Assembly (NCBI GenBank): GCA_947480335.1
Contig: CANKCB010000003.1
Span: forward strand, 1-64,000
From: Gammaproteobacteria bacterium
Lineage (GTDB): Bacteria; Pseudomonadota; Gammaproteobacteria; Eutrophobiales; Eutrophobiaceae
DNA length: 64,000 nt
Direction: 5' to 3'
The notes under the pieces: model-generated
Databases searched by the model: none
Told to the model about the DNA's origin: nothing
What the model saw: the letters and a program-made list of their open reading frames with translations, nothing else
Shown: piece by piece, positions 16,349 to 49,589 of the stretch
Layout of the letters: each line of letters starts with the position of its first letter
Numbering within the stretch: the first letter of the stretch is position 1
Made by a program: the position numbers and the translations under genes

Positions 16349-17239
16349 CTATGTCGGAAAGACATTGGTGGAAAGATAACGATCCCCACGATCACAGATT
16401 ATCGCCACAATGACTGAGTTCTCGACAGTCGCAGATACCTGAAGCATTGCATGTACAGCGCCGCCGGATGAAACTCCTGCAAAGATCCCTTCTTCTGAGG
16501 CGAGTCGACGGGTCATGATTTCGGCCTGCGTCGACGATACATCCATGATTTTATCTACCCGCTTGCGGTCAAATATCTTTGGTAAATACGCTTCCGGCCA
16601 GCGTCTGATTCCGGGGATACTGCTGTCGCCTTCCGGTTGCACGCCAATTATCTGCACATCAGGGTTTTTTTCCTTGAGATATCTCGATACACCCATAATA
16701 GTACCAGTCGTGCCCATGGCGCTGACAAAGTGGCTTACTTTTCCGTCTGTATCACGCCAGATTTCCGGGCCAGTGGATTCGTAGTGGGCGAGCGGATTAT
16801 CCGGATTGGCAAACTGGTTCAAGACCTTGCCCTTGCCTTGTGACTGCATTTGTTCAGCCAGATCACGTGCTCCTTCCATACCTTCCTGCTTGCTGACAAG
16901 AATAATCCTGGCGCCAAAAGCTTTCATGGTGGCCTGTCGTTCAATACTCATATGTTCAGGCATGATCAGCACCATTTGGTAACCCTTGACTGAAGCCGCC
17001 ATCGCCAGTGCAATACCGGTATTGCCACTGGTCGCTTCGATTAAAGTATCTCCGGGACGAATTTCGCCTCGCAGCTCGGCGTGTTTAATCATACTAAGTG
17101 CCGGGCGATCCTTGACTGAACCGGCCGGATTATCCCCTTCCAGTTTGGCCAGTAGTAGATTGGATGTATTGCCACCAATGCGCTGTAAGCGAACCAGAGG
17201 AGTATTGCCAATAATCGTTTCTATTGTTGGAATATTCAT
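16349..17239 (-). CDS. cysM: CysM, cysteine synthase B
   Basis: This PLP-dependent enzyme makes cysteine from O-acetylserine and sulfide or thiosulfate. In the 296-aa product the PLP lysine lies in NPAGSVKDRPAL (near residue 42), the substrate loop is EATSGNTGIALAM, and the phosphate-binding loop is SAMGTTGTIMG. Features that separate CysM from CysK are the short length and the Arg-rich KLEGDNPAGSVKDR context. It overlaps rimI by 4 bases (ATGA), so it belongs to the leuA-udg-rimI-cysM run. Confidence 0.93.
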   Translation of the reverse strand: MNIPTIETIIGNTPLVRLQRIGGNTSNLLLAKLEGDNPAGSVKDRPALSMIKHAELRGEIRPGDTLIEATSGNTGIALAMAASVKGYQMVLIMPEHMSIERQATMKAFGARIILVSKQEGMEGARDLAEQMQSQGKGKVLNQFANPDNPLAHYESTGPEIWRDTDGKVSHFVSAMGTTGTIMGVSRYLKEKNPDVQIIGVQPEGDSSIPGIRRWPEAYLPKIFDRKRVDKIMDVSSTQAEIMTRRLASEEGIFAGVSSGGAVHAMLQVSATVENSVIVAIICDRGDRYLSTNVFPT

Positions 17240-36301: not shown

Positions 36302-36322
36302 TGCACCCAAATGGCATTAAAA

Positions 36323-37249
36323 CTATCTGCTCATCCTTCCCGATTCCAGCAGCCCTAAACCGAAACCAAGTCCTCTGGACAGGATACAGGCCATTTCACG
36401 CAAACTTCTACATGTCATCACTCTGGAGACAACTCTGGCAAAAACAGTAGTATCATTTTGTACTACCAGCCTGGCTTGTCTTCCACGCAGTCCGGCAACC
36501 AATCCCCCCTGATAACAACGCTTTAAAGCATTGAAGAATCTAATATGAGTCAGATTGAAGTCATGGTAGATAATACAATCGGGTAAATAGAGTCGATCTT
36601 GACTGGTAGGAGCGCTGAGTTTCTGTAAAAAAAAGATCTCATCTCCGACTGGCAGAGAAGTTCCTGGTCCAAACTGCTCAGGCCAGGGACGAATAAGCGA
36701 TTGTAATACACGCCTGCGTACAGCGAGGTTTGGACCTACCGGATATTCATCAAATTCATACACCCTGGGTTGGTCACCATAATCCTGTTCTGACAGTAAA
36801 ATGGTTTGCAGATTGTAGGACTGGCGTATCCAGGATGGCACCAGACCTTCATTCACCTTTATCCTACCACCGAATACATTCACTTCAGGCCATTTTGAGC
36901 AGGCTTCCTGATATGCAAAAAGCCAATTTGTGTCTGGTCTTATGTCATCGTCAGCAAAAACCAACAATTCTCCTTGAGCGCGTAAGATCGCCTCATTCAG
37001 GGCATTACTTTTCCCCGGTTTCGACAAATGAATTACGGTTAATGGCAAATTCGCGGAGTATTTTCGCTCTAATTCTGCAGCATGATTCTCGGTACTGTTG
37101 TCTGCGACAATTAATTCATAAGACACATTTCTTTGTATGGACTGCATGCCGTACAGGAGTTTTTCAATACTATCCTTTCGGTTTCGCGTCGCAATCAGAA
37201 CACTGATGAGAGGGATATTCACAATATTATTCTCAGATTCCTTACGCAC
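36323..37249 (-). CDS. Glycosyltransferase family 2, paralogue of the 39569-40465 protein
   Basis: The 308-aa GT-A enzyme has the N-terminal SVLIATRNRKDSIEKLL, donor-site FADDDIRPD (DDD-type DXD at about residues 98-100), and a C-terminal part containing FGGRIKVNEGLVPSWIRQ and FGPGTSLPVGDE. The same two motifs, nearly identical, occur in the GT2 at 39569, so the two are paralogues that flank wzm/wzt. The frame begins at GTG 37249. Substrate unknown. Confidence 0.85.
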   Translation of the reverse strand: MRKESENNIVNIPLISVLIATRNRKDSIEKLLYGMQSIQRNVSYELIVADNSTENHAAELERKYSANLPLTVIHLSKPGKSNALNEAILRAQGELLVFADDDIRPDTNWLFAYQEACSKWPEVNVFGGRIKVNEGLVPSWIRQSYNLQTILLSEQDYGDQPRVYEFDEYPVGPNLAVRRRVLQSLIRPWPEQFGPGTSLPVGDEIFFLQKLSAPTSQDRLYLPDCIIYHDFNLTHIRFFNALKRCYQGGLVAGLRGRQARLVVQNDTTVFARVVSRVMTCRSLREMACILSRGLGFGLGLLESGRMSR

Positions 37250-37303: not shown

Positions 37304-38545
37304 TTATTCAACAACCTGAATCTGGTGCGGTAAGTAAACCAGATCACTGTCAGCAATCGAGAACTGCACATCCTCATTTCTTGCGCCAGATACAACTACT
37401 TCTGCTGCAAATCTCCAGATATCGAGGCCAAATCGTCCATCGGTAACCCCTAGGTTGATGGAATACACCCCGGGTCTTAGACAGATATTATTAAAAGTAC
37501 AAACCACCTTGCCCGCTTTTCCCACATGTTTGGCATGAACGTTGGCCATGGTAATAACCACACCAGACCTGGTATCTTCAATCCCGACTCGGAATTTTAT
37601 ATTTTCCATTTCCTTGAATACTTCATAACCGGCTTCAATAATCAAATCCTCACCAGTAAGTGTCAGCCTATTACTGCCACTTATGGCTCCGTGTGCCACA
37701 ATACCGGTGAAACGTATTTCACCTGTACCTTCCCTGTTTAAAGCCACATCAGAAAACCTGTTGTCATGATTTATATCTTCAAGATATTTACCATTCACAT
37801 AATCCACGTCACCGGCATACTTAATTCTGCCCTTTTCCAGATAAATTGCCTGATCGCAAAGTTCTTCGGCCAACCTCAAATTATGGGAAACAAACAACAC
37901 AGCCACATCTTTTTTGATCTCTTCGAGTTTTTTTATACATTTTCTTCTGAACGATATATCTCCTACTGAAAAAACCTCATCCAACAGTAAGATATCAGGC
38001 TTAATCTGTGATGCAATTGCAAACCCAAGCCGCATACGCATACCAGAGCTGTAATTTTTAACCGGGGAATTCATGAACTCTTCAAGTTCAGAAAAGCTAA
38101 CTATTTCATCATAGTTTGCATCCGTTTCTTTTTTTGTAAATCCGAGAATGGCTGCATTCACATATACATTCTCACGGCCGGATAGAACCGGATTAAATCC
38201 GGCACCCAGTGCAATCAACGCTCCAACACTGCCGCGCACCGTAATTTCGCCCTTGTCTGGATTGAGCAATCCGTTTATCAGTTTCAGCAACGAGGTCTTG
38301 CCTGCGCCATTTCGACCAAGCACTGCCAGCACTTCCCCTCTCTGAACCGTGAAGTTGATATCGGACAATGACCAGAATTCATCCTTGCGTAAATACTCAC
38401 GATTAGCATTTTTGTATCTGACCGCATCCAGAATATCGTAACAACCGTATATCAATGATCGACGCAAACTCCTGCAGTATTTCTTGGATACATTTTTAAC
38501 CTCCAGCAAGGGAATTGATCCCACTCTATCTGCTGCCATAATCAT
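37304..38545 (-). CDS. wzt: Wzt-type ABC transporter ATP-binding protein with C-terminal glycan-binding domain
   Basis: This is the ATPase of an ABC exporter for O-antigen or related polysaccharide. The 413-aa product has Walker A GRNGAGKT (residues 77-84), signature SSGMRMRLGFAIA, Walker B ILLLDEVF, and the H-loop VSHN. After residue 255 the extra Wzt domain begins (beta-sandwich, AGYEVFKEMENIKFRVGIED), which in homologues recognises the capped end of the polymer. The start overlaps the wzm stop as ATGA. The extra domain implies export of a chain terminated by a specific non-reducing end modification. Confidence 0.9.
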   Translation of the reverse strand: MIMAADRVGSIPLLEVKNVSKKYCRSLRRSLIYGCYDILDAVRYKNANREYLRKDEFWSLSDINFTVQRGEVLAVLGRNGAGKTSLLKLINGLLNPDKGEITVRGSVGALIALGAGFNPVLSGRENVYVNAAILGFTKKETDANYDEIVSFSELEEFMNSPVKNYSSGMRMRLGFAIASQIKPDILLLDEVFSVGDISFRRKCIKKLEEIKKDVAVLFVSHNLRLAEELCDQAIYLEKGRIKYAGDVDYVNGKYLEDINHDNRFSDVALNREGTGEIRFTGIVAHGAISGSNRLTLTGEDLIIEAGYEVFKEMENIKFRVGIEDTRSGVVITMANVHAKHVGKAGKVVCTFNNICLRPGVYSINLGVTDGRFGLDIWRFAAEVVVSGARNEDVQFSIADSDLVYLPHQIQVVE

Positions 38546-39402
38546 GCCTCTACCCTTTCTATCAGGAACGGCATAGACAGCCTGTATACAATCAATCCAG
38601 GCAATAGCGCGAATAGCGATAACAGGCTGTACAAAACGTATACATTTAAATATAACAATTCATCACCATGCAACAACTCCCTGATTGTTATTAACATGGG
38701 CGTGACAGGGTTTAGATATATATAGAATAAATTTATATTTTCCGGCAGTGCATAGAATACCGGCGTCAAAAAAAACCAGGCGTAAGTAATTATTGCCATT
38801 CCTTTTTCAACATCCTTGAATAATAATCCAATCGGTGAGATCAGTATCCCCATGGCAAAACCAAGCAATATCAGAGAAAAGTAACATACCGGAACCATCA
38901 AGGCATACTTTCCAAATTCTGTCCCGCTCACACTGTAAAAGACGATTAATATCATCCCGCGAATTATTGAATTGAAAACCACCTCGCCGAATCCGGCTGT
39001 TAACAACGCCACCTTGGGGAAATTTATCTTGCCTATGTAAGAAGCAGCGCTGTTTAACATTTTCAACGGGCTGTTTATCGCCTCAACAAACGATTGCCAC
39101 AATAGCACCCCGGTTATCACATAAATTGAATACGGATAATCTTTAATTTCAACATCTATCAAACTCTGCGACCTTAAAAAGATAAAAATAATTGCAGTCA
39201 TGAGTGGCGGGGCAATTGCCCATACATAACCAAAATAGGTTTGCCTGTACATTATATTCAGGTTTCTAACAAACAGTCGCCAGGCAAGTCCGTGTGAATC
39301 TATAAATTCCCGCGATATTTCTACAAGCAATTGCTTCAGGTTAAATCCGGAGGGTGTTGCTGTGTAAACCTTTTCAGGAATGTTATTATCGCGGATAGTC
39401 AT
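38542..39402 (-). CDS. wzm: Wzm-type ABC-2 transporter permease
   Basis: This is the membrane partner of the Wzt protein, with an ABC-2 fold of six hydrophobic segments. The 286-aa product shows the Wzm-like amino end (FIDSHGLAWRLFVRNLNIMYRQTYFGYVWAIAPP), a following hydrophobic ITGVLLWQSFVEAIN, and a C-terminal basic tail. The frame is open to 39462, but the first 20 residues lack similarity, so ATG 39402 is preferred; no clear ribosome binding site supports either. It overlaps wzt by 4 bases. Confidence 0.88.
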   Translation of the reverse strand: MTIRDNNIPEKVYTATPSGFNLKQLLVEISREFIDSHGLAWRLFVRNLNIMYRQTYFGYVWAIAPPLMTAIIFIFLRSQSLIDVEIKDYPYSIYVITGVLLWQSFVEAINSPLKMLNSAASYIGKINFPKVALLTAGFGEVVFNSIIRGMILIVFYSVSGTEFGKYALMVPVCYFSLILLGFAMGILISPIGLLFKDVEKGMAIITYAWFFLTPVFYALPENINLFYIYLNPVTPMLITIRELLHGDELLYLNVYVLYSLLSLFALLPGLIVYRLSMPFLIERVEA

Positions 39403-39568
39403 GGAATCAAATCTGTATTTGTAACCGGCGTTTATGATACTGAAACAGTTGCAGACATTCATCCAATATCAGCTTCTGCATGCCACAACCAGAATAAGCA
39501 ACAAACATTCGGTTGCTGTTGCATACCAGGCTTAATGATTGACTCTTAACCCTGCTCTTCATCATCAA

Positions 39569-40465
39569 TCAATGTGCAGATTCGTTGACAAACTGCAGTG
39601 TCTGCACCAACCTGCCAAAGATTCTACTGCAAATACAAAGTAGCTCGGGCAAACTTCTGGTTTTGGCGAGATACCAAACATCGCGTTTGAAGGTACGTTG
39701 TGGGGTATTGTCATCCAGTTTTACCAGCAAGGATTTTAAAACCACATCAAACTTCCCTAATTGATAATACCGTCTGGTGGCCCCTCGCAGACTAAGATAC
39801 CCCGGGTTGAGTTCATGCCACACATTACTCGATGGAACCTGTATACGGTCCTGAGCATCAGGTTTACTAATTTGCATCAGGAATGCTGTTTCATCTCCTA
39901 CCGGTATTGAGGTGCCTGGTCCAACTCGATCATAAAGTCTGACATGCGAATCAATTATCACATTTTTTCGGACAGCATAATTCAGGCCAAACGGATATTG
40001 CCACTCAGGATAAGTTGCATACGCACCTGATTTGAGATGTTGCGAAGTCAACAAGTTTTTTACCAGTTTTGATTCCCTGATCCAGTCTGGTAATCCCTGT
40101 TCCACAACAGAAACCCTGCCACCAAACAAGTTTGCTTGAGGAAAAGCCAGCGAGGCCTGATACAGGTTATCAAGCCATCCTGCATCAGGAACCACATCAT
40201 CATCAGTAAAAACCAGTAAATTCCCCAGCGCGACAGTGAGGCCCTTGTTCAAGGCAATGCATTTACCCGGACGCTCCTCATATAAATAAACCAGATTCAG
40301 ACGGGCTTTTACAGTCTCAATTATATTTTTTGTATTATCTGTACTGCCGTTATCAATAACAACCAACTCCCAGTTGTATTGACACTCATGCTTGCACAGA
40401 TTTTCCAGGAACCTATGTAACTGCTTTTCCCTGTTTCTGGTAGCTACAATTACAGATATATCCAT
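39569..40465 (-). CDS. Glycosyltransferase family 2, paralogue of the 36323-37249 protein
   Basis: The 298-aa GT-A enzyme has SVIVATRNREKQLHRFL at the start and FTDDDVVPD as the donor-site segment. FGGRVSVVEQGLPDWIRES and VGPGTSIPVGDETAFL are both shared with the protein at 36323. The pair presumably adds related sugars. It is followed by wzm and preceded by a 189-base gap (40466-40654) in which I see nothing specific. Confidence 0.85.
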   Translation of the reverse strand: MDISVIVATRNREKQLHRFLENLCKHECQYNWELVVIDNGSTDNTKNIIETVKARLNLVYLYEERPGKCIALNKGLTVALGNLLVFTDDDVVPDAGWLDNLYQASLAFPQANLFGGRVSVVEQGLPDWIRESKLVKNLLTSQHLKSGAYATYPEWQYPFGLNYAVRKNVIIDSHVRLYDRVGPGTSIPVGDETAFLMQISKPDAQDRIQVPSSNVWHELNPGYLSLRGATRRYYQLGKFDVVLKSLLVKLDDNTPQRTFKRDVWYLAKTRSLPELLCICSRIFGRLVQTLQFVNESAH

Positions 40466-40654: not shown

Positions 40655-41644
40655 TCAGTATTTGAAAGCATATATCCGGTCGATTATTTTCATCAGCCTC
40701 AAGGCATCATTGGAATTACCCAGTGCAATTGGTTCATTGTTCGCAATGGCGTCAACAAACATTCTGATTTCCGAATTCCACGACTCATCGACATGATAAA
40801 TATGACGGAGCTCGCTCTGGGATTTACCCGCTTCCGGATTTCTATCGTTATACTTGATTGTCAATTCCTCATCACCATAGGCGCCGGAGGTGGTTTTCAG
40901 GCCATTTAGTATCAACGCACCTCCTTCCAGAAATATCTCAAGTGAAAACAGATATCTCCATTGGGTCATGGTGCTATGCAATGATGCACAGATGCCGGTG
41001 CTGGAACTGCGAAACTGGGCAAAGACATTATCTTCTATACCATCTATTTTCCAGAACAGATTGGAAACCAATGCCTGAACTTCATCGAAACCCCCACCCA
41101 GATACAGGAAAATATCCAGCATATGGATCCCCTGATCCAGCAGGATGCCACCACCGGCAAGTTCTTTCACTGAACGCCAACCTTTGAAAAACTCCTGGTC
41201 GACTTCCTTGCCGTAACGACCCCGCATCCACAATACTTTTCCAAGGTCGCCACTATCAATGATTCGTTTTATCTCCTGTACGCTTTGGTGGTGCCGATGA
41301 TTAAAACCGTACATCAACACCTTGCCACTTGTGCGTTCGACTGCGCGAACCTCTTCAACCTGACTGGCCGTGAATGCCGGGGGTTTCTCACAAAATACAT
41401 GCTTACCGGCTGACAACGCCGCAATGCAAAGCGGTACTATCCGGCTATTGGGGGTACAGATAAATACCGCCTCTACCTGCGGGTCAGTCAAGGCATCCTG
41501 ATCACTGGCATAGACCTTGTAAGAAAGAGAACCATTAATCCGGGTATCGTATACGCCGGTAATAACGGCCCTACCGGAGTTTTCAAGCGCCGCAGCACGG
41601 ATTCTGCCCATTTTGCCATAGCCAATGATGCTACACTTCAGCAT
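40655..41644 (-). CDS. Gfo/Idh/MocA family NAD(P)-dependent oxidoreductase
   Basis: This 329-aa enzyme has an N-terminal Rossmann fold (IIGYGKMGRIRAAAL, residues 5-19) and the family motif FCEKPPAF (Glu-Lys-Pro, near 90). The GGGILLDQGIHMLDIF segment (about 170-185) carries the catalytic His/Asp area. These enzymes oxidise or reduce sugars at one hydroxyl. It is the last gene of a tightly packed run with a 6-base gap to the cyclase gene. The substrate is probably the sugar or sugar acid made by the run. Confidence 0.85.
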   Translation of the reverse strand: MLKCSIIGYGKMGRIRAAALENSGRAVITGVYDTRINGSLSYKVYASDQDALTDPQVEAVFICTPNSRIVPLCIAALSAGKHVFCEKPPAFTASQVEEVRAVERTSGKVLMYGFNHRHHQSVQEIKRIIDSGDLGKVLWMRGRYGKEVDQEFFKGWRSVKELAGGGILLDQGIHMLDIFLYLGGGFDEVQALVSNLFWKIDGIEDNVFAQFRSSSTGICASLHSTMTQWRYLFSLEIFLEGGALILNGLKTTSGAYGDEELTIKYNDRNPEAGKSQSELRHIYHVDESWNSEIRMFVDAIANNEPIALGNSNDALRLMKIIDRIYAFKY

Positions 41645-41650
41645 CTCTGG

Positions 41651-42349
41651 TTACGCTCGCTGAATTTCTATTTCGGCAATTACAGTCACCGGGCTACCTT
41701 CTGCCCGCGAAAACAATAATGGCACGATGGATATTTTATTGATTTTACAGCCGCTTTCCAGACTGGAAAGTTTCATATCCTCAATTAGCAGTATGGGTCG
41801 CTGCGTACCCAGAAACGCCCTGTGCGCTGCTTTACCCAGAGCTCTGTCTTGATACGACGTCAATGATAGCGAATCAAAGCCCAAAAAACGTAATGCCGGC
41901 AGGGTGCGGCGCAAATAGTCTGCCAGCGTGTCGGCAAAGCCTGGATTCTCGTTCCAGTAGGTTTGACTCCCCCTGTATCGTTCATATCCTGTTTTTAATA
42001 ACAAGACTTCAGTCGCCGGATCAGGACTGAACATTTGCAGATCTTCAATGTCTATTATTTTTCCGGAATGACAATTGTCAGATAAATCGATCCAGCAAAT
42101 ATTCTCTGCCATAAAAAAATCCGGCGGGTAATCTTCCAGTCGATTTCCGTCAGAAAAGAAATGTGCTGGCAAATCAATGTGTGTACCTGAATGATTGTTC
42201 AGGGACCAACGCTCCAGATTTGCGGTATCGCCATGGTCAAGACATTTAAGTGGAATGCGCATAACTTGACCTTCATTCGCATACATCGGAGTATCTGTAC
42301 CCAGATAATGGGACAGATAAACCAGATTGCCGGTTGATTTGCCATTCAT
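41651..42349 (-). CDS. Cyclase family (KynB-like) metal-dependent hydrolase
   Basis: The 232-aa protein belongs to the cyclase/kynurenine formamidase family. The metal-binding motif NNHSGTHIDLPAHFF (about residues 52-66) supplies the conserved His and Asp. Such enzymes hydrolyse amides, lactones or cyclic imides. ATG 42349 lies 4 bases behind the dehydrogenase stop; the upstream start at 42385 would overlap it by 32. Placement between a dehydrogenase and a Gfo/Idh oxidoreductase suggests it opens or hydrolyses a lactone or formamide formed by oxidation, but this is inference. Confidence 0.8.
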   Translation of the reverse strand: MNGKSTGNLVYLSHYLGTDTPMYANEGQVMRIPLKCLDHGDTANLERWSLNNHSGTHIDLPAHFFSDGNRLEDYPPDFFMAENICWIDLSDNCHSGKIIDIEDLQMFSPDPATEVLLLKTGYERYRGSQTYWNENPGFADTLADYLRRTLPALRFLGFDSLSLTSYQDRALGKAAHRAFLGTQRPILLIEDMKLSSLESGCKINKISIVPLLFSRAEGSPVTVIAEIEIQRA

Positions 42350-42353
42350 CGCG

Positions 42354-43175
42354 CTAATTTCCGTGACCGGACAGTTCGGATACAAATTTTTTCAAATCTG
42401 TTGCCAGTCCCAGCAGGAACTGCTCGCAGGTACTGGCAACATGCGGTGTCATAAAAAACCGATGCGGATGAAACTGTTTTAATGGCCCTGTATAAGGTTC
42501 TTTCCAGAACACATCAAATGCGGCGCGTAATCGACCATTGACAATCTCTTTTAGCAAATCAGACTCATCCACTATCTGACCACGTGCCGTATTGACCAGA
42601 ATGGCGCCATCTTTCATTACTGATAGTTTGTCAGCGTCAAACCAGCCATTGGTTGCGTCGGTCAATGGAATATGCAGACTGACCAGATCCGCTGCGGCCA
42701 GTAACGCATACAAATCCTTTTTTTGCTGGTGTTGAATATCAAATCGTAAAACATTTACCAGTTGTTCCAGCTTGTTACTGACCCTGCTGCCGATATTTCC
42801 CTGACCGATTACCAGTACCGCCTTTCTGTTCAACGAAACCCGTTGATTTTTTTTCCAGCTGGTAATGTCACCTGAATCAGCATAGAGCTGGTTTAAGATG
42901 GTATATACAGTAAAATTTGCAGTCTCTTCAAAAATGATATTAGAAGTCTCTGCTCCGGGTAATCCCACTGCGATGTGCCTGGCCTGACATTCCGCAAACG
43001 GCACGTTGTCTAACCCCACACCACATTTGAACAAGCCTTTCAGTCCTGGAAATTGTTCCAGATCCAGCGACTTACTCCCGATAATGGCAATTTCTGCCTG
43101 TTCGGGTGCTACGGTGACCAATGCAGCGGGATAGTAATCGTCCAGCGTATTGGTATTTTTCCAGTACAGCATCAT
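42354..43175 (-). CDS. D-2-hydroxyacid dehydrogenase family protein
   Basis: The 273-aa NAD-dependent enzyme shows the Rossmann loop VIGQGNIGSRVSNKL (about residues 115-129), then LVSLHIPLTD and ILVNTARGQIVDE. The catalytic Arg sits in NTARG and the Glu and His in the DVFWKEP and TPHVAS segments. It is shorter than typical members (310 or more), because the N-terminal catalytic part is trimmed. Its start overlaps the phosphatase stop as ATGA. In this context it may act on a 2-hydroxy acid sugar. Confidence 0.83.
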   Translation of the reverse strand: MMLYWKNTNTLDDYYPAALVTVAPEQAEIAIIGSKSLDLEQFPGLKGLFKCGVGLDNVPFAECQARHIAVGLPGAETSNIIFEETANFTVYTILNQLYADSGDITSWKKNQRVSLNRKAVLVIGQGNIGSRVSNKLEQLVNVLRFDIQHQQKKDLYALLAAADLVSLHIPLTDATNGWFDADKLSVMKDGAILVNTARGQIVDESDLLKEIVNGRLRAAFDVFWKEPYTGPLKQFHPHRFFMTPHVASTCEQFLLGLATDLKKFVSELSGHGN

Positions 43176-43933
43176 TCGTCTTCCAGTCCGAACCGGGCAT
43201 TCCAGGCCTGAACATCAAGTTTCCAGTGGGTATCTATTGTGGTCTTGTTAACTGTACCACCCGCGGCCTGTACCAGAGCAATTCCTGCTGCAACATCCCA
43301 TATCCAGATATCCTGTTCCATATAAAGATCAAATACTCCGGAGGCTACATTGGCCAGTGAAATCGCAGCTGAACCTATCATCCGGATCTTTTTATAGTTC
43401 TGTACTGATTTGATAAATTGTTGCAGGGAAGTACCATCATAATTGCGCCCTGCCGGAAATCCTGTTGCCAACACCGCCTGGTCCCGACTGTTCACTGTCG
43501 ACACCTGTATAATATTGCCATTACACCAGGCACCCACTCCAACCTGACCGGTATAACATCGTGCATTGGCAATATCATAAATCACACCGAAAACCGGCTG
43601 CTGATCCACCCAGTAGGCAATTGAAACGGCATAAGCCGGGAAACCACGATTATAATTAAATGTGCCATCCAACGGGTCCAGAATCCAGCATGGGCCATCA
43701 AGACAATTAAAATTGGTGCTACCACTTTCTTCCGAGAGGATATTTGCCCCAACGGGCATTAGCATGTTAAACAACAATTCTTCTGCCTTGCGATCTGCAT
43801 CCAGTTTTATATCCTTGCCTGCATTACTTTGTACACTGTTGAGCAAGGCAAACTCACTCTGAAGCAATTGCGCGACCTTACCCGCGGCAGTTTCTGCAAG
43901 ATTACAGAGCGTCTGGTCGTCTTTTGATAGCAT
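43172..43933 (-). CDS. Inositol-monophosphatase-family sugar phosphatase
   Basis: The 253-aa product has the IMPase motifs ILSEESG, ILDPLDGTFNYNRGFPAYAVSI and WIWDVAAGIALVQAAGG with all metal ligands. It is divergent from the housekeeping SuhB at 34353 and is not a duplicate in function. The frame is open to 44044, but ATG 43933 follows the SIS gene stop by 2 bases and gives the normal N-terminus. It probably dephosphorylates the sugar product of the SIS enzyme before nucleotide activation. Confidence 0.85.
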   Translation of the reverse strand: MLSKDDQTLCNLAETAAGKVAQLLQSEFALLNSVQSNAGKDIKLDADRKAEELLFNMLMPVGANILSEESGSTNFNCLDGPCWILDPLDGTFNYNRGFPAYAVSIAYWVDQQPVFGVIYDIANARCYTGQVGVGAWCNGNIIQVSTVNSRDQAVLATGFPAGRNYDGTSLQQFIKSVQNYKKIRMIGSAAISLANVASGVFDLYMEQDIWIWDVAAGIALVQAAGGTVNKTTIDTHWKLDVQAWNARFGLEDE

Positions 43934-43935
43934 AG

Positions 43936-44559
43936 TTAACTCTGGTAATGATCCTGGCGCATATTTTGATATCCATCCCTGTCCCAGATATTGATACCCA
44001 TATATTTGTCCAGCCAGACATGCATCAATACCTGATGAGCACATTCGACCATACCGTAGGTTTTTGCTGGAATATAAAAATTCAGGTCACCTAGTCCTCG
44101 AGATTGATTGTCCGGTTTCAGACCTGAAAACGTAATTACATCAAGCCCAAGATCCCGTGCTTTATGAATGACGTGGATGATATTTTCCGAGTTGCCTGAT
44201 GAACTGATAGTAACCAGTATGTCACCTGGTCTGGCGTAGTATGCAAGTGGTGCCGAGTACATATGCTCTGCCCCCAAATCATTGACGACGGCAGACAACA
44301 AGGCTGCGTCGGTAAACACCCGGGTCGAGACCTTGCCATTCTTGGACCAGTCTATCGCCATATGACTGGCTATAGCGGAACTGGCACCATTGCCACAAAA
44401 GTATTGTGTGGCGCCGTATTTTTTGATCCTGGCAGACAGGGTACAAAGTCTGTCGAAGCCTTCATCATGCTCGATTTTGTTGCCGGCATTATCGGTAATT
44501 ACCAGAGCACCCAACAGCTGGTTAAAGGTAAGTTGATACTGCCTGAAAAAATCGCTCAT
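43936..44559 (-). CDS. SIS-domain phosphosugar isomerase (GmhA-like)
   Basis: The 207-aa SIS protein has the GmhA-like active-site stretch FCGNGASSAIASHMAIDWSK (about residues 51-70) and LVTISSSGNSENII, ending with MVECAHQVLMHVW. GmhA makes sedoheptulose-derived D-glycero-D-manno-heptose 7-phosphate, but the similarity only shows a keto/aldose phosphate isomerase. The start ATG 44559 has AGG eight bases upstream. It follows the cytidylyltransferase by 28 bases and precedes the phosphatase by 2. Confidence 0.85.
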   Translation of the reverse strand: MSDFFRQYQLTFNQLLGALVITDNAGNKIEHDEGFDRLCTLSARIKKYGATQYFCGNGASSAIASHMAIDWSKNGKVSTRVFTDAALLSAVVNDLGAEHMYSAPLAYYARPGDILVTISSSGNSENIIHVIHKARDLGLDVITFSGLKPDNQSRGLGDLNFYIPAKTYGMVECAHQVLMHVWLDKYMGINIWDRDGYQNMRQDHYQS

Positions 44560-44587
44560 ATATTTACCTGAATTATAATGTCTGGAT

Positions 44588-45256
44588 TTAAACACTACCC
44601 TCTACCAATGGCAACAGGGCTTCTGCCACCATCAAGTCATTTTCAGTTTTGATAACCAGTCCGGCAAGATTATTAACTGTGTGATAACCCAATTTTCCGG
44701 CATAGGTTGCACAACGGCCTGCTTTTAATGCCTGCAGAAACACTGAACTTCGCCAACCGCTGATCGACCAGCTGATTTTTTGAACCGGCGTCAAATCCTG
44801 CGAGTTGTTTTTTGCTTCATAACTGAAGTTTACCGGTCGATCCTGATACACGCATTCAAGCTGAATATTTTCCACACTGAGCAGGCAATCCCAACGGTTT
44901 TCTTCCAAATCCAGAACAAAGTTTCGGACAGACTCCACAGTCAGTAATGGCGCAATACTATGTACCTGAATAACATACTCACAGGGCACTTTATCAATAA
45001 ACTCTGCGATATATTGTTCACTGGTTGCCTGATCATTCCCCAGCTCCGACGGACGCAGATGAAAGTTTACGCCTTCATCGCGGGCAATATTTCCAAAATC
45101 CGGATGTTCGGAATTAACCCAGATTGCATCAAAGCATCCAGCCTGTTTGCATTTTCGAATGGCACGTGTGATGAGCGGCACACCTGCGAGTTGCCTGAGG
45201 TTTTTTTTGGGTAGTCGCTGACTTCCCATGCGAGCCGGGATTAATGCTATTTTCAT
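44588..45256 (-). CDS. Cytidylyltransferase of the CMP-sugar (NeuA/KdsB-like) family
   Basis: The 222-aa enzyme has the family signature IPARMGSQRLPKKNL at residues 5-19, then a pattern typical of CMP-acylneuraminate synthetases (RPSELGNDQATSEQYIAEF, YVIQVHSIAPLL). It would activate a sugar acid with CTP for transfer by a CMP-sugar glycosyltransferase. It is not KdsB, which lacks the RPSELGNDQATS pattern. ATG 45256 overlaps the preceding small frame as ATGA; 45265 is an alternative. It is the first enzyme gene of the sugar run. No aldolase such as NeuB is in the window. Confidence 0.82.
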   Translation of the reverse strand: MKIALIPARMGSQRLPKKNLRQLAGVPLITRAIRKCKQAGCFDAIWVNSEHPDFGNIARDEGVNFHLRPSELGNDQATSEQYIAEFIDKVPCEYVIQVHSIAPLLTVESVRNFVLDLEENRWDCLLSVENIQLECVYQDRPVNFSYEAKNNSQDLTPVQKISWSISGWRSSVFLQALKAGRCATYAGKLGYHTVNNLAGLVIKTENDLMVAEALLPLVEGSV

Positions 45257-45444
45257 GTTCTGCATCCTGTTCGTGTGCGGCAGGCATCACGATTATTAAC
45301 TGGCAGATTCAGCTCGGGCTTAGAAAGAAACTGCTGCTGTAATATTTCCGGACTGTGCAGCCGGTATTTCAGCGTTTCATGTATACGCCGGAGTGTAACC
45401 GGGTTCACGCATAAACCAAACTGCCTAGTTATTCGCGTATTCAT
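45253..45444 (-). CDS. Small 63-aa hypothetical protein between the DUF115 gene and the cytidylyltransferase gene
   Basis: This frame starts at ATG 45444 inside the end of the DUF115 gene (20-base overlap) and ends at TGA 45253, sharing ATGA with the cytidylyltransferase start. It would otherwise leave a 168-base hole in a tightly packed run. It contains a helix-like NPVTLRRIHETLKYRL stretch and a basic C-terminus with no known motif. Chance is possible; coupling is the only support. Confidence 0.35.
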   Translation of the reverse strand: MNTRITRQFGLCVNPVTLRRIHETLKYRLHSPEILQQQFLSKPELNLPVNNRDACRTRTGCRT

Positions 45445-46252
45445 TATTTTGCGTATTCCCAAGCACATCCTGCAAAGTGACCCGGGGAAACACATCCAGT
45501 CTGGTTTGTCTGGATGCGTTATAAATGACACGTCCATCCGCTTCAAATGCCGATTTTGCACAATTAAATGCCTGATACTGCAAATCCAGCCTCGGCATGG
45601 TCCAGGCCTCTCCCTTTGACCGGTATTCCGGATGAAAATGATTCACTTCCCCTTTTCCATATAACAACGTTTCACCTATCGGGGATTTCTTCGTAGAAGG
45701 TTCCGGTATTTCAAATGAGAAATCGAGTCCCAGCAAATACACTTCTTGCAGTCCCATATAATAGGCGAGCTGCAACATGGTATAGATCACGGTATAACCA
45801 CCATTTGCCCCCTCTGTCAGATCGGTTGAAAAACTGAACTGTAACTGGTTATTTATTTTTGTGCTGCCTATATCCCTCAACCAGTAAATATCTTTCTTTC
45901 CTATAAAATTGCAACGCACAGAATTACTGAAAATTTTCACCAGATCATATTTATTGATTTTTCGGGCATTATTTCCGGCAACCATCGAATCCACTACGGA
46001 ATAATAGCTTGGTCGCCAGGATGTTTTATCAAATGCCAGGTAGATTTTATTACAGGCGAAAGTTATCTCGTTTTTTAATAAATCGAGATCTTCTATTTTC
46101 AGGCTGGGGCCACTGCCAATGATAAATCCTCTTTTGCCTTTATGACAGTCCTTGAATCTCGCAATCCTTTCAAAATGTGGATTAAAATACTCCAGTCTGC
46201 CAATTCGCCGGTTTGCCAGCATGTAATTAACAACCTTCTTAAATGACAGCAT
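45425..46252 (-). CDS. DUF115/GT42-like protein (putative CMP-sugar transferase)
   Basis: The 275-aa protein shows the FIIGSGPSLKIEDLDLL loop near residue 43, then FACNKIYLAF and a later MGLQEVYLLGLDFSFE. These features are shared by DUF115/Maf-type proteins and by GT42 sialyltransferases of Campylobacter. Either fold uses CMP-activated nonulosonic acids in known cases. It is first of the 46252-to-40655 run, just upstream of the CMP-sugar-synthetase-like gene, which fits a transferase for its product. The acceptor is unknown. Confidence 0.65.
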   Translation of the reverse strand: MLSFKKVVNYMLANRRIGRLEYFNPHFERIARFKDCHKGKRGFIIGSGPSLKIEDLDLLKNEITFACNKIYLAFDKTSWRPSYYSVVDSMVAGNNARKINKYDLVKIFSNSVRCNFIGKKDIYWLRDIGSTKINNQLQFSFSTDLTEGANGGYTVIYTMLQLAYYMGLQEVYLLGLDFSFEIPEPSTKKSPIGETLLYGKGEVNHFHPEYRSKGEAWTMPRLDLQYQAFNCAKSAFEADGRVIYNASRQTRLDVFPRVTLQDVLGNTQNNEYANN

Positions 46253-46290: not shown

Positions 46291-47112
46291 TTACACCGAC
46301 ATATCCAGATATTCCCGCAGAATCTTTTTAAGACTGGTATCCAGTATTTTCTCTAACAAGGTCTCGTTGCCATAACGTAATTCCAAATCATGATCGACAT
46401 AATATTTATTGAGTGCGGGATACAACAAGTTCTTCAAATATCTTTTTTCATTAAACTTATTATTACCATAGGTATTATTTGACTCGTGCACACGATACAC
46501 ACCAAATGCCTCATAACTGGAAGTCACTTCACCCCAGCACATGCTGGTTCTGGTGATATAACCGTCAGCACAAACCCTGAACACATCCGGAATTGGTAAT
46601 ATCTTTTTCAGGCAATCAACTTTTATCGACAGCCCGGTTGTAGGCACAAACTGGGGCAACAAACGACTTGAGATCGAATGCTCATAGTAATTTCCTTCGA
46701 CCAGTATTTCCCTGAATTTTTGATCTGTAATCTGCCCGTTTTTCAACAGCAACAGATTATGCTGGTATATGACGGCGTTCGGTTTATCCGTAAACGCTTT
46801 TGCCACACTCTGCAATTTCCCGGGCAACCAAAAATCGTCACTATCAATGAAGCAAACCACTTCACCATCAATATGGTTGATCCCATAATTGAAAGAGGAA
46901 CCCTGCCCCTGATTCCGGTTCACATAATGCGTGCTAACTCGATCAGCGTACCTGTCGCATGCGGCATCAATAACATCTCTGGAATGGTCAGTAGAACCGT
47001 CATCAATGACCAGAAATTCAAAAGGCTGGTAATCCTGACCAACGACACTATCTATCGCCTCTTTGATATAATGGGCACCATTATAATTTGACATAATGAC
47101 AGACAGTTTCAT
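46291..47112 (-). CDS. Glycosyltransferase family 2
   Basis: The 273-aa GT-A enzyme has SVIMSNYNGAHYIKEAIDSV at the start, the nucleotide-binding VIDDGSTDHS near residue 36, and the DXD-type CFIDSDDFWLPGKL near 88. It lacks membrane segments. It precedes the DUF115 gene by 38 bases and may be the first gene of the sugar run. Donor and acceptor unknown. Confidence 0.87.
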   Translation of the reverse strand: MKLSVIMSNYNGAHYIKEAIDSVVGQDYQPFEFLVIDDGSTDHSRDVIDAACDRYADRVSTHYVNRNQGQGSSFNYGINHIDGEVVCFIDSDDFWLPGKLQSVAKAFTDKPNAVIYQHNLLLLKNGQITDQKFREILVEGNYYEHSISSRLLPQFVPTTGLSIKVDCLKKILPIPDVFRVCADGYITRTSMCWGEVTSSYEAFGVYRVHESNNTYGNNKFNEKRYLKNLLYPALNKYYVDHDLELRYGNETLLEKILDTSLKKILREYLDMSV

Positions 47113-47215: not shown

Positions 47216-48598
47216 TTGCTCTTTAATTCAATAACCTTCGTAATATTTTTCATAACGGTCTATGCCGTCTATCTGTTATTGAAGCATAAATCACAGAACG
47301 TTCTACTGTTGCTTGCAAGTTATCTATTTTATGCGTGGTGGGACTGGCGATTTATCATCCTGATCTTTCTTACCACACTGGTGGATTTCAATGTTGCCAG
47401 ATGGATTAGCACAGCCACCCATCCAAAACGCTACCTGATAATCAGTCTGATTACCCATCTATGTGTGCTTGGCTTCTTTAAGTATTTTGATTTTTTCGTG
47501 GACAGCACACTTTTCCTGCTAGACTCAATCGGCTTTGCTGCGGACCCGGTTACATTGCAAGTAATTCTCCCTGTCGGTATTTCATTCTATACCTTTCAGT
47601 CGATAAGCTATGTTATCGATTGTTATCGCCGCAAAATTATTCCTTCAGATAATTTTCTCGACTATGCGCTGTATGTTAGCTTCTTCCCACAGTTGGTGGC
47701 AGGCCCAATCGAACGATTTAACAACCTCATGCCACAATTTCAAAACAAACGAACTATCACACACCACAATATCCACGAAGGGTTATGGTTAATCCTGTTT
47801 GGATATTATAAAAAGGTGGTCATTGCGGACAATCTATCCATACTCGTTGACCCAGTATTTGATAACCCGGGGAACCACTTTGGCTCAGCGGTGCTTACAG
47901 CAGTATATGCCTTTGCCCTGCTGATATATGGGGATTTCTCCGGCTACACCGATATTGCACGTGGTACAGCAAAGTTGATGGGGTTCAATCTATCCATTAA
48001 CTTTAATCTGCCCTACTTCGCCAATAACCCCAGTGATTTCTGGAAAAGATGGCACATTAGTTTGTCTACCTGGCTCAGGGATTATTTGTATATCCCTCTT
48101 GGGGGCAACAAACATGGGTCAGCAGACACCTGTAAAAACCTGATGGTAACCATGTTACTCGGTGGCCTCTGGCATGGAGCCGCCTGGCATTATGTCCTAT
48201 GGGGTGCGTATCATGGCATTTTATTGATTGGTCACAGAACCCTGTCACCGTTTATAAAGAATATTAGTCCACTGACTAACTGGTTCAGTATTCTACTGAT
48301 GTTTCATTTTACTTGCTTGGGATGGATCCTTTTCAGAATAAACCATGTCTCTGATCTACCCATATTATTTTCCAGTTTGTTTTCTGGGGGGGCAGTTAAC
48401 CTGTCGGGAATTGAGCTGATTTTACTGCTGGCCAGCCCCCTCTTGGTCCTCCAGTTGTTTCAGTATTTGCGAAACAACCCCCGATTCATGCTGGAATTGT
48501 CAACTGGCGCACAGCTTATTATTGCGATGATTTTGTACTCCTACATTCTATTATGTGGCAAGGTTGATGGTCATGAGTTTATCTATTTTCAATTTTGA
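47216..48598 (+). CDS. MBOAT family O-acyltransferase (AlgI-like)
   Basis: This is a membrane-bound O-acyltransferase that moves acyl groups, often acetyl, across the inner membrane to polysaccharides. The 460-aa product has about ten hydrophobic segments, SYLFYAWWDWRF near 35-46, PVGISFYTFQSISYVID near 119-135, and the two family histidines at H280 (WKRWHISL) and H320 (GGLWHGAAWH). The start is TTG 47216: it gives the classical MBOAT N-terminus (MLFNSITF) and lies behind AGGGA. It is on the plus strand inside a minus-strand cluster and overlaps the SGNH-like gene. Confidence 0.92.
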   Translation: MLFNSITFVIFFITVYAVYLLLKHKSQNVLLLLASYLFYAWWDWRFIILIFLTTLVDFNVARWISTATHPKRYLIISLITHLCVLGFFKYFDFFVDSTLFLLDSIGFAADPVTLQVILPVGISFYTFQSISYVIDCYRRKIIPSDNFLDYALYVSFFPQLVAGPIERFNNLMPQFQNKRTITHHNIHEGLWLILFGYYKKVVIADNLSILVDPVFDNPGNHFGSAVLTAVYAFALLIYGDFSGYTDIARGTAKLMGFNLSINFNLPYFANNPSDFWKRWHISLSTWLRDYLYIPLGGNKHGSADTCKNLMVTMLLGGLWHGAAWHYVLWGAYHGILLIGHRTLSPFIKNISPLTNWFSILLMFHFTCLGWILFRINHVSDLPILFSSLFSGGAVNLSGIELILLLASPLLVLQLFQYLRNNPRFMLELSTGAQLIIAMILYSYILLCGKVDGHEFIYFQF

Positions 48599-49589
48599 TA
48601 ACCTGAACATTACCAGACGGTTTCTCGGCCAATACGTACGCGAGATTAGCCTGCTTGTGTTTGTATTTGTTCTGACTACGGCAATCTGCATTCTGTTGTT
48701 ATTACAAATCAATCAACAGACTGGATCCAGACTGGACAATGTGTATGCCGATAAAATACAGACTCTGGTTCTTGGTAATTCTCAACTGGAAGGACTGGTA
48801 GCAGAGGATCAACGCGTGCTCAATCTTGCACTCGCCGGTTCTGACTATTCAATCCAGTATCAAATACTCAGATATGTTATGCCACGACTTAAAAATATCA
48901 ACACGGTCGTGCTTGGCTTTGACAATATCCCGCTGCGCACTCCGGCGATTGCCCGTATGCGGGGTGACTTTAGCAGTCTGTCCCATATGGGAGTTCCCTG
49001 GTATGCCATTCCTGAAACATCATTACTGGACAGATTAAAGTTCATGGTGATTTATAACCGATGGGCGAGACCACTACTGGTTGGCCCCCGATTTGAAGCA
49101 GACCGATTATTGTCATGGCTTGACGATTCAGCACATCAGCCTGTCAATCGGCCCAATTCTCAAAATGAATCATCAGGTCCAGATCAGATCCGACCAGGTT
49201 TTTATCTGGCACCTGCACAGGGCACAAAGAAAATTGAGGATTACATTCGCGCTCTGGATACAGATAATAATCTTGACACCAACCTGATCGCGCTCGACCA
49301 GATTGTCGATTTTTGTTCCGACCATAAAATCAAACTTATACTGTTACGACCACCTACTACGCTCGAATTTCGGGCAGGACGTAGTCAGGAGTGGCAGGAT
49401 GAACTGTCCCTGGTCTATCAACATATTGCTGATCGCCACCCCGAAATGGATATTCCATTCTGGGATGCAGATCAAGCAGCTGCCTATGTAATTGAATTAT
49501 TTGATGACCCTAATCATTTGTCATCAACTGGAAAACAGCGTTTTTCAAGTTACATCCTGTCAAGATTAGAACCTTTACTGCAGAGGTGA
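48573..49589 (+). CDS. SGNH-like partner of the MBOAT acyltransferase (AlgJ/DltD-type role)
   Basis: The 338-aa protein has an N-terminal membrane anchor (about residues 20-46) and an outer domain with LVLGNSQLEGLV near 60, a GNS-type nucleophile segment. The catalytic-looking DDPNHLSSTGKQRF lies near the C-terminus (Asp-His pair). I do not recognise a named family, but MBOAT proteins are commonly followed by such SGNH partners that finish O-acylation in the periplasm. ATG 48573 is chosen because AAGG sits 9 bases before it; the overlap with the MBOAT gene is 26 bases. Confidence 0.75.
   Translation: MSLSIFNFDNLNITRRFLGQYVREISLLVFVFVLTTAICILLLLQINQQTGSRLDNVYADKIQTLVLGNSQLEGLVAEDQRVLNLALAGSDYSIQYQILRYVMPRLKNINTVVLGFDNIPLRTPAIARMRGDFSSLSHMGVPWYAIPETSLLDRLKFMVIYNRWARPLLVGPRFEADRLLSWLDDSAHQPVNRPNSQNESSGPDQIRPGFYLAPAQGTKKIEDYIRALDTDNNLDTNLIALDQIVDFCSDHKIKLILLRPPTTLEFRAGRSQEWQDELSLVYQHIADRHPEMDIPFWDADQAAAYVIELFDDPNHLSSTGKQRFSSYILSRLEPLLQR

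Follow-up and report, generated by a model that had tools for sequence, protein, structure and literature searches.

Layout of the gene cluster

Within the window (the whole 64,000-nucleotide stretch analysed), a stretch of eight listed frames runs on the minus strand from 46252 to 40655, and these open reading frames match the coordinates given in the initial annotation. The gene families named there are borne out for seven of the encoded proteins, from DUF115 to Gfo, all of which have Pfam matches over the curated cut-off. At the head of the stretch is a gene for a DUF115 or Maf-like protein (45425..46252; MptE-like/DUF115, PF01973, 48 bits), a proposed CMP-ulosonate glycosyltransferase. Next come genes for a CMP-sugar-synthetase-like cytidylyltransferase (44588..45265; CTP_transf_3, PF02348, 90 bits), a SIS-domain protein proposed to be a GmhA-like sugar-phosphate isomerase (43936..44595; SIS_2, PF13580, 49 bits), an IMPase-family phosphatase (43172..43933, listed frame from 44044; Inositol_P, PF00459, 178 bits), a short D-2-hydroxyacid dehydrogenase (2HADH; 42354..43175; 2-Hacid_dh_C, PF02826, 118 bits), a cyclase-family hydrolase and proposed lactonase (41651..42349, listed frame from 42385; Cyclase, PF04199, 74 bits) and a Gfo/Idh/MocA oxidoreductase, proposed to be an aldose C1 dehydrogenase (40655..41644; PF01408, 76 bits, and PF22725, 78 bits).

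The close coupling described initially holds for the CMP enzyme and SIS genes and from the IMPase to the Gfo gene, which overlap or lie a few base pairs apart, but not for DUF115 and the CMP enzyme, separated by 159 bp. The listed frames overlap by 8 bp (CMP enzyme and SIS), 4 bp (IMPase and 2HADH) and 32 bp (2HADH and cyclase), with a gap of 6 bp between cyclase and Gfo. The IMPase and the cyclase probably start at internal ATGs, at 43933 and 42349, so that gaps of 2 and 4 bp would replace overlaps. The eighth frame (45253-45561, minus strand, 102 amino acids), initially counted as a gene, is probably not one, since it matches nothing in Pfam or NCBIfam and overlaps DUF115 in another frame.

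The surrounding genes are likewise all on the minus strand. A GT2 glycosyltransferase gene (46291..47112; PF00535), the partner of DUF115, lies on one side. On the other, 189 bp beyond Gfo, is another GT2 gene (39569..40465; PF00535), followed by a Wzm-like permease (38542-39462), which Pfam does not match at E 0.001 and which is named from its position and a reading of its sequence, and by a Wzt ATPase with a Wzt_C domain (37304-38545; PF00005, PF14524). Pfam also identifies a GT2 (36323-37249) and a GT4 (35177-36310) in the same polysaccharide cluster. We propose that Wzm/Wzt is the exporter of the glycan.

Properties of the encoded proteins

The predicted structure of the CMP enzyme (pLDDT 93.6) has CMP-Neu5Ac, Pse and Kdn synthetases as its top PDB folds, and the sequence reaches the PF02348 cut-off but not those of NCBIfam PseF and KdsB. 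Residues G14, S15, R17, K21 and N22 of the CTP loop are invariant in nine aligned sequences. The metal-binding Asp pair of Neisseria meningitidis NeuA (D209/D211; 1eyr), however, corresponds to V204/K206 here. Of 18 CMP enzymes encoded at loci with the set, 13 have Val/Lys, Ile/Lys or Lys/Ser in its place; the other five, from gene sets of the same type, retain DxD. The D211A substitution in N. meningitidis NeuA is reported to lower kcat 15,000-fold (PMC2901514). Thus, while activation with CTP had been claimed initially, and the CTP loop and NeuA-like fold agree with it, replacement of the Asp pair makes the use of CTP by this enzyme less certain than that.

The nearest solved structures to the SIS protein are phosphoheptose isomerases, although its score of 70.8 bits is well short of the GmhA NCBIfam equivalog cut-off (209.45) and SIS is the sole domain that Pfam detects in it. 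In the IMPase, the conserved acidic residues are invariant in eight sequences. The short 2HADH, in which Pfam detects no PF00389 domain, has R198, E226, H245 (which we take to be the catalytic Arg/Glu/His) and a GxGxxG motif that are invariant in 14 sequences, and 2HADHs of 25-54% identity to it occupy the same place in other loci. The direction of its reaction is uncertain, as 2HADHs are often reductases. Some 2HADHs have 2-keto-D-gluconate as a substrate (PMC6303947).

Residues K87, D170 and H174 of the Gfo protein are invariant in 13 sequences. The Gfo tree contains a clade of 11 with support of 100/100; the idea that the full set marks a single clade of this tree was dropped, as that label changes five times. 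Among the solved-structure relatives is YjhC, which is reported to form Neu5Ac from its dehydrated forms (PMC7315737).

The cyclase is an accessory of the set. It was found in none of the eight loci selected by Gfo, and so was rejected as a core enzyme; among set loci it occurs in the window and in L177, L178 and L179, the last three restoring it only as an accessory. These four cyclases form a subgroup with one from L013, a 4.9-kb contig on which 2HADH is present and Gfo is not. The HxGTHxDxPxH motif, presumably the metal-ligand motif of the PF04199 superfamily, is complete in the window, L177 and L179, with Ala for Pro in L178 and Ser for Thr in L013. Cyclase relatives in one genus (L014-L019) had no other sought gene in the stretches fetched, and a scan of viral sequences with the cyclase found no relative.

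Other hydrolase-like genes occur at related loci. A 6-phosphogluconolactonase (TIGR01198, over cut-off) directly adjoins Gfo and 2HADH in L049, and YhcH-type proteins (DUF386) are found in eight loci, two named by profile and six by similarity to those two. YhcH acts on the 2-keto acid Neu5Ac by opening its ring (PMC8141875). FAH-like proteins (L045, L046, L126 and L128) fall below the NCBIfam cut-offs, and Pfam gives one sub-threshold match and otherwise none, so the label is a weak one. The idea that an FAH-like hydratase, YhcH and the cyclase are simple substitutes in one slot is weakened by L177-L179, which hold both cyclase and YhcH.

Foldseek by itself found nothing at E <= 0.001 for the DUF115 protein (AlphaFold pLDDT 82). 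A second structural comparison placed the model closest to Maf (5mu5; Z 16.0, rmsd 4.1, 198 aligned), followed by archaeal HPPK (Z 12.1), the CstII/CstI sialyltransferases (Z 10.9-11.8; CstII 1ro8, Z 11.8, rmsd 4.1, 189 aligned), SteA (10.6), mammalian sialyltransferases (8.1-9.6), thiamin pyrophosphokinase (8.9) and 3cq9 (8.1), with the remaining matches at 5.3 or below. Judged from this model, Maf alone is clearly above HPPK, which ties with the sialyltransferases. We propose from the predicted fold that the protein may be a CMP-ulosonate glycosyltransferase. At one related locus (L044:10984-12999), PF00535 and a DUF115-like domain share one frame as a GT2-DUF115 fusion.

Co-conservation of the gene set and independence from NeuB

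A lack of co-conservation had been named in the initial annotation as grounds against its reading, but the genes are co-conserved. All five core enzymes (CMP enzyme, SIS, IMPase, 2HADH and Gfo) are encoded together at ten loci, of which one is the window and the nine others are distributed over the Pseudomonadota, Verrucomicrobiota, Bacteroidota and Bacillota. Gene order differs among loci, and IMPase is absent near L043, L174, L175, L178, L179 and others. Around Gfo relatives of 39-62% identity, the CMP enzyme and SIS were each found at six of eight loci, as opposed to none of 72 loci of distant Gfo proteins (p 9e-8 for each gene), 42 of which were at least 18 kb long. Of eight loci retrieved with the CMP profile and no other query, seven had Gfo, seven 2HADH, six SIS, six DUF115 and none NeuB. 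Conversely, eleven control loci of weaker CMP-enzyme relatives had NeuB in ten, 2HADH in one, and neither Gfo nor SIS in any. L028 (two match places in G520) was left out of both the eight and the eleven because it has a close Gfo and SIS; adding it to the controls gives NeuB 10/12, Gfo 1/12 and SIS 1/12.

Genes were counted as present at 45 bits (35 bits for FAH), which leaves out Gfo-like ORFs of 20-28 bits in L153, L160 and L029. Of seven other match places in one CMP search, those in G480 and G535 were left out of the flank comparison; a further search had 13 other match places, eight of which were fetched, and three of 11 matches (G747, G748 and G751) were already in hand and left out of the counts. 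Several queries came from L045-L049 and L126-L128, whose scores therefore include self-matches, while L172-L179 were not used as queries. L175 and L176 have short flanks, since their contigs (8 kb and 20 kb) stop close to the match. One candidate locus (L153, in G806) was close by score but had no partner genes and was rejected. Relatives of at most 34.4% identity were all that appeared among the 25 matches listed when phages were searched with Gfo, and a distant BLASTN search of E. coli genomes with 40658-44590 gave no match.

Among the hosts of the set are the Gram-positive Paenibacillus and Sinorhizobium fredii SMH12; in the latter it stands beside a capsule gene. No composition for the SMH12 K-antigen was found in the accessible portions of PMC4270759 and PMC4881576.

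The condensing aldolase reported missing at the outset is indeed not apparent, and no conserved NeuB/KdsA partner, which the initial annotation had also named as grounds against its reading, came to light. NeuB (PF03102) was not found in the organism's own genome (95% complete), nor near any of 16 counted set loci, as against ten of the eleven controls. Seven other genomes contain all or some of the set; NeuB is absent from three of them and present in four, so that four of eight lack it when the own genome is counted. Phmmer queries with the two PF00793 proteins of the own genome detected no KdsA-like ORF in the window or at any of 15 loci. NeuB, KdsA-like, HpcH and transaldolase ORFs were all missing from the window and from 13 of the 15 loci in these phmmer scans; the exceptions are L049, with HpcH, and L050, with both HpcH and transaldolase, and it was these two loci that supplied the HpcH and transaldolase queries.

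A candidate oxidative route and its alternatives

To our knowledge, all CMP-activated sugar acids known (Kdo, sialic, pseudaminic, legionaminic and related acids) are formed through a PEP-dependent condensation by an enzyme of the NeuB/KdsA type. We think it somewhat more probable than not that the set encodes a pathway that dispenses with NeuB and reaches, by oxidation, a CMP-activated ulosonic (2-keto sugar) acid destined for a surface polysaccharide. The SIS isomerase would convert a ketose phosphate to an aldose phosphate, and the IMPase-family enzyme would dephosphorylate either this or its oxidized product. Gfo/Idh might then oxidize C1 to give an aldonolactone, to be opened by the PF04199 hydrolase, or in other loci perhaps by 6-phosphogluconolactonase or by nothing, after which 2HADH could oxidize C2 to yield a 2-keto aldonic acid. 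The ring form of such an acid would have an anomeric C2-OH next to the carboxylate, as in Kdo or sialic acid, to which the NeuA-like enzyme could add CMP; the Maf/GT42-fold DUF115 protein would transfer the residue and Wzm/Wzt would export the glycan. No C-C bond would be made along the route. We base this proposal on the observed gene content, co-conservation and absence of NeuB, together with predicted folds and conserved residues, and from these we infer every reaction as well as the step order, carbon number and stereochemistry. The similar logic in the initial annotation (isomerize, dephosphorylate, oxidize, hydrolyse, activate, transfer) is supported by co-conservation and by the lack of a NeuB/KdsA partner, while hydrolysis by an accessory cyclase and dephosphorylation by an IMPase missing near several sets fit it less well, and its step order and sugar are likewise conjectural.

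An aldol condensation by an enzyme whose gene lies elsewhere (HpcH/HpaI, DHDPS-family or KdsA), with Gfo and 2HADH only modifying or epimerizing the acid, seems to us unlikely. Related sets in L049, L050 and L177 have an aldolase of the HpcH/HpaI type nearby, so aldol chemistry may operate in some relatives of the set; two DHDPS-family and two PF00793 genes (the latter on contigs 4 and 8) of the own genome could in principle provide an aldolase product, and the reaction of YjhC cited above would fit this reading. Yet the phmmer scans are empty for the window and 13 of 15 loci, the own genome has neither NeuB nor a KDPG-type aldolase, and its single PF03328 match, a frame of 299 aa some 140 kb outside the window, reads as CitE-like. 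We doubt rather more that the product is not ulosonic at all, the altered CMP enzyme joining CMP instead to an aldonic, hydroxy or other acid from Gfo and 2HADH. The replaced Asp pair in 13 of 18 enzymes, and the severity of the D211A defect in NeuA, would suit such a product, but the CTP-loop residues are invariant, DxD persists in five enzymes from the same kind of set, and YhcH-family genes and the Maf-fold protein accompany many sets.

It is very improbable that the set serves ordinary nonulosonate or Kdo synthesis, its partner genes being located at other places in the genome. The NeuA fold of the CMP enzyme is what that would predict, and Kdo-type genes seem to be present elsewhere in the own genome (a further PF02348 match on contig 11, E 4e-56, and the PF00793 genes). 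We nevertheless rejected it on the NeuB/KdsA evidence; moreover, the SIS protein, a SIS domain only, is far under the GmhA cut-off, and LPS Kdo is not expected in Paenibacillus, where the set occurs. Chance assembly of unrelated sugar genes is scarcely credible: polysaccharide loci are mosaics and gene order does vary, but the co-occurrence tests and the sets common to four phyla argue strongly the other way.

The preferred oxidative route shares with the NeuB-dependent pathways (Neu5Ac, Pse, Leg and Kdn) a CMP-synthetase fold, a Maf-fold transferase-like protein and, presumably, activation of a phosphate-free sugar. It differs in having two dehydrogenases in place of NeuB and an altered CMP-enzyme metal site, and no dehydratase or aminotransferase family is among the Pfam matches of the operon. 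As in the Kdo pathway (KdsD, KdsA, KdsC and KdsB), a sugar phosphate would be isomerized, dephosphorylated and activated with CTP, but the set has no KdsA-like ORF, a SIS domain only, an IMPase-family phosphatase and added oxidation steps. The structural neighbours of the SIS protein recall the GmhA heptose branch, from which the operon is set apart by the low GmhA score and by having no heptose kinase or GmhB-type Pfam match. With 2-ketogluconate metabolism the likeness is the 2HADH substrate, although that system is known as 2-ketogluconate utilization and not as a source of CMP-sugars in the part of PMC6303947 consulted.

A search of the open-access literature found no description of this gene set, in agreement with the initial statement that no described pathway has it. 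If the oxidative route is correct, a route without a NeuB/KdsA-type enzyme would provide a new class of glycan monomers, with Gfo, 2HADH and SIS beside a NeuA-like enzyme and no NeuB as their gene signature. Going further, we consider it slightly less likely than not that there is a second, independent logic for making CMP-ulosonic acids, in which C1 and C2 of an aldose are oxidized without a C-C bond being formed and without PEP or pyruvate. It would supply several phyla, and some phage-like contigs, with non-3-deoxy acids for surface glycans, and would use a CMP-synthetase clade with the metal Asp changed to Val/Lys. The altered site raises the question of how nucleotidyl transfer proceeds without the Asp pair that NeuA needs. 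Such a route would also correct annotation, as the resemblance of the CMP enzyme to proteins of sialic or pseudaminic acid synthesis could lead to its being named as one of them. A search for short ulosonic acids gave, among the matches listed, a single relevant item, a title on the E. coli K3 capsule, and none in the accessible parts of PMC13171606 and PMC11766843. According to that title, cited in PMC10433991, the K3 polysaccharide contains 4-deoxy-2-hexulosonic acid, a likeness that consists of a short ulosonic acid in a capsule and comes from the cited title, not from gene comparison.

A seven-gene run in a polysaccharide cluster

Seven genes are read on the minus strand from 46252 to 40655, in the order DUF115/MptE-like protein, cytidylyltransferase (hereafter the CMP enzyme), SIS isomerase, IMPase-family phosphatase, D-2-hydroxyacid dehydrogenase (2HADH), PF04199 cyclase-family hydrolase and Gfo/Idh oxidoreductase. 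All seven families named in the initial annotation are thus recovered with Pfam, while the tight coupling described there holds for most junctions, where genes overlap or lie a few bases apart, but not for gaps of 159 bp (DUF115 to CMP enzyme) and 189 bp (Gfo to GT2). The small frame of 102 aa has no family match in Pfam or NCBIfam. All seven operon proteins fall short of the NCBIfam cut-offs for known functions, the highest scores against cut-offs (bits) being 70.8/209 for GmhA, 78.9/206 for PseF, 108.5/454 for PGDH, 124/264 for the PRK12676 phosphatase, 116/355 for iolG and 46.7/223 for arylformamidase; the DUF115 protein has no NCBIfam match. Among the matches listed, we found no description of this gene set in the open-access literature.

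A GT2 gene lies upstream of the run, and a GT2, a Wzm-like permease, a Wzt with a Wzt_C domain, a further GT2 and a GT4 follow downstream, so that the cluster reads as the ABC-transporter-dependent polysaccharide type. Divergent from the operon, at 47216-49589 on the plus strand, are an MBOAT acyltransferase and then a 344-aa protein without a Pfam match, a pair that perhaps serves O-acylation of a glycan.

Neighbours of the Gfo and CMP enzymes

A small Gfo alignment was compared with 84,980 species genomes, and the best 80 loci among the matches listed were taken as a sample (8 near loci, with 39-62% identity to the window's Gfo, and 72 distant ones), neighbours being counted up to 10 kb per side. 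In this sample the CMP enzyme and SIS are each beside Gfo in 6/8 near versus 0/72 distant loci (p 9e-8 for each), 2HADH in 7/8 versus 3/72, IMPase in 4/8 versus 3/72 and DUF115 in 3/8 versus 0/72; the cyclase was found in none of the 8 or the 72. Co-conservation, the lack of which the initial annotation had named as a refutation, is borne out: the CMP enzyme, SIS, IMPase, 2HADH and Gfo occur together in ten loci, namely the window and L044, L045, L046, L047, L126, L127, L128, L172 and L177. The nine outside the window belong to four phyla, Pseudomonadota, Verrucomicrobiota, Bacteroidota and Bacillota, assigned from record titles or taxonomy lines except in L172 and L177, which take the phylum sampled. 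Carriers of the set include Solimonas aquatica, Pseudovibrio ascidiaceicola and Mucilaginibacter. Plasmid records contributed Sinorhizobium fredii SMH12, Paenibacillus cellulosilyticus and Leisingera aquaemixtae, the last annotated in the order Gfo, methyltransferase, SIS, inositol monophosphatase, NTP transferase, phosphoglycerate dehydrogenase.

In the Gfo tree the window's protein sits in a clade of 11 rows with support 100/100, two Verrucomicrobiota being nearest (99/99); outside that clade the tree has some long branches. Loci labelled as having the full set do not form a single clade of the tree. A CMP match at E <= 1e-15 occurs in 7 of the 369 genomes of the class searched, own genome included, and in none of three listed genomes of the same family, so the operon was likely gained horizontally. 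Three IMG/VR contigs classed as viral carry 2HADH-Gfo-SIS among glycosyltransferase-like genes, at the contig edge in L032 and with a weakly matching CMP enzyme in L033 and L034; phages or phage-like elements may carry the sugar pathway.

The same association was approached from the CMP enzyme. Its nine-row profile (A3) gave 7 matches at E <= 1e-45 in 387 genomes of L044's phylum and 4 matches in 395 genomes of L047's phylum; three of these 11 loci had been found before, and the neighbours of the remaining eight were scored at >= 45 bits. These eight have Gfo in 7/8, 2HADH in 7/8, SIS, DUF115 and YhcH/DUF386 in 6/8 each, IMPase in 3/8, the cyclase in 3/8 (L177, L178, L179), an HpcH/HpaI-type aldolase (HpcH) in 1/8, and NeuB in 0/8. 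The controls were eleven loci with weaker relatives of the CMP enzyme, eight from the class of L046 and three from the 369-genome class search; there NeuB is present in 10/11, 2HADH in 1/11 and Gfo and SIS in 0/11 each. Across the loci of the set that were counted, NeuB is absent from 16 of 16 against 10/11 present in controls (Fisher p 1e-6, or 1e-4 for the eight new loci alone), and Gfo is present in 7/8 against 0/11 (p 2e-4), p values that overstate independence because the loci share descent. L028, also from the 369-genome class search, was kept in neither group, as its 7.4-kb contig has Gfo and SIS with no NeuB or 2HADH; including it makes the controls 10/12 for NeuB and 1/12 for Gfo. In the loci examined, this CMP-enzyme family is accompanied by NeuB or by Gfo, never by both in one neighbourhood, and at L153 and L176 by neither.

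Catalytic residues and predicted folds

In a profile alignment with structure 1eyr, Asp209-Ile-Asp211 of N. meningitidis NeuA aligns with Val-Ile-Lys of the CMP-enzyme profile. Excerpts of the source articles state that both NeuA aspartates bind the catalytic Mg, that D211A cuts kcat 15,000-fold (PMC2901514) and that the Asp pair of KdsB holds Mg-A likewise (PMC3149649). Among 18 CMP enzymes from the window and 16 loci (L043-L047, L126-L128, L172-L179, with two in L179), V/I-x-K is present in 10 (window, L043-L046, L126, L128, L172, L173, L177), K-V-S in 3 (L047, L175, L178) and D-x-D in 5 (L127, L174, L176, both of L179), while all eight other sequences of the alignment have D-x-D or D-x-E. 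Unlike NeuA and KdsB, the window's enzyme therefore lacks the Asp pair at Mg, having V204 and K206 instead. The CTP loop is intact in 9/9 rows of A3. The altered site would imply either a different mechanism or a metal contact supplied by the substrate or another residue, and it weakens the assumption of CTP activation.

Residues with catalytic roles are retained in the other enzymes: R198, E226 and H245 of 2HADH (14/14 sequences), E105, E106, D123, D126 and D250 of the IMPase (8/8), K87, D170 and H174 of Gfo (13/13) and the SIS motifs GNGxS and SxSGxS (14/14). The 2HADHs of different loci are only 25-54% identical to the window's, a divergence that suggests a required reaction rather than mere hitch-hiking.

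The predicted CMP-enzyme model (pLDDT 93.6) is closest to CMP-Neu5Ac, CMP-Pse and CMP-Kdn synthetases. The DUF115 model (pLDDT 82) best matches the Maf glycosyltransferase 5mu5 (Z 16.0, rmsd 4.1, 198 aligned), followed by the CstII/CstI sialyltransferases at Z 10.9-11.8, on par with an archaeal HPPK at Z 12.1; Foldseek alone gave a weak result. GT2 and DUF115, separate genes in the window, are fused into one in L044.

Proposed source of the sugar acid

The initial annotation noted that a condensing aldolase is missing, and this stands: a phmmer scan of the window and 15 loci found no NeuB, KdsA-like, HpcH or transaldolase ORF except in two loci, L049 (HpcH) and L050 (HpcH and transaldolase), which leaves 13 loci and the window free of them. 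NeuB is absent from the own genome (95.2% complete, 27 contigs) and from three of the seven other genomes (those of L043, L045 and L047); the genomes of L044 and L046 have one each on another contig, L049's has two weak matches and L050's has four. The own genome does hold a single PF03328 match, some 140 kb past the window, two DHDPS-family and two PF00793 matches, and no KDPG-type aldolase. An ordinary Kdo pathway encoded elsewhere in this genome would account for the PF00793 matches and for a strong PF02348 match, which is on contig 11.

Judging from the genes, Gfo, lactone opening and 2HADH probably act in series to make a 2-keto aldonic acid for CMP activation. Gfo would oxidise C1 of an aldose, the lactone would be opened, and 2HADH would oxidise C2, giving a product whose anomeric C2-OH adjoins a carboxylate, the group activated by NeuA-like enzymes. 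Gfo/Idh enzymes include aldose oxidoreductases, going by the names of solved relatives. Lactones open spontaneously, so a lactonase could be optional, as the cyclase is. Also in favour of the oxidative route are a 6-phosphogluconolactonase above its cut-off in L049, directly adjoining Gfo and 2HADH, and YhcH-family proteins in 8 loci of the set (L047, L127, L172, L174, L175, L177, L178, L179). Known substrates of 2HADHs include 2-keto-D-gluconate (PMC6303947, in excerpt), and ring opening of a 2-keto sugar acid is the activity of YhcH itself (PMC8141875, in excerpt). If proved, the route would represent a second way to build CMP-ulosonic acids.

Against this, IMPase is missing near several sets, and HpcH near L049, L050 and L177, the last outside the 15-locus scan, shows that related sets can contain a pyruvate-type aldolase. 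In L177, HpcH is accompanied by an additional 2HADH and an additional CMP-like enzyme of weak match, a group that in our reading would serve a separate sugar. The chemistry of the oxidative route is offered as a proposal.

Several related loci are worth recording. L177:7139-14500 (G1599, phylum of L047) is one minus-strand run holding the five-enzyme set, the cyclase and YhcH, with the second 2HADH, the HpcH/HpaI aldolase and the second CMP-like enzyme upstream in reading order, a layout suggestive of two CMP-sugars being produced in parallel. In L013 (G141:C148), whose 4.9-kb contig has no Gfo, a cyclase relative follows 2HADH and an epimerase, a second context of this hydrolase subfamily; L014-L019, from six genomes of one genus (f44/g102), have cyclases of 34-38% identity, the other sought genes being absent from the stretches fetched. 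The product of L028:4432-5664 (G520) resembles CMP synthetases and carries at its C-terminus a long extension, a putative cupin; adjoining genes encode a further CMP enzyme, an SDR-like protein and a Gfo 52-53% identical to the window's. In L050 (Omnitrophota), at 3327-17172, a related Gfo is found with a 3-dehydroquinate-synthase-like protein, SIS, a transaldolase-like protein (by reading), HpcH, two cytidylyltransferase-like proteins and 2HADH, another unusual sugar-acid gene set.
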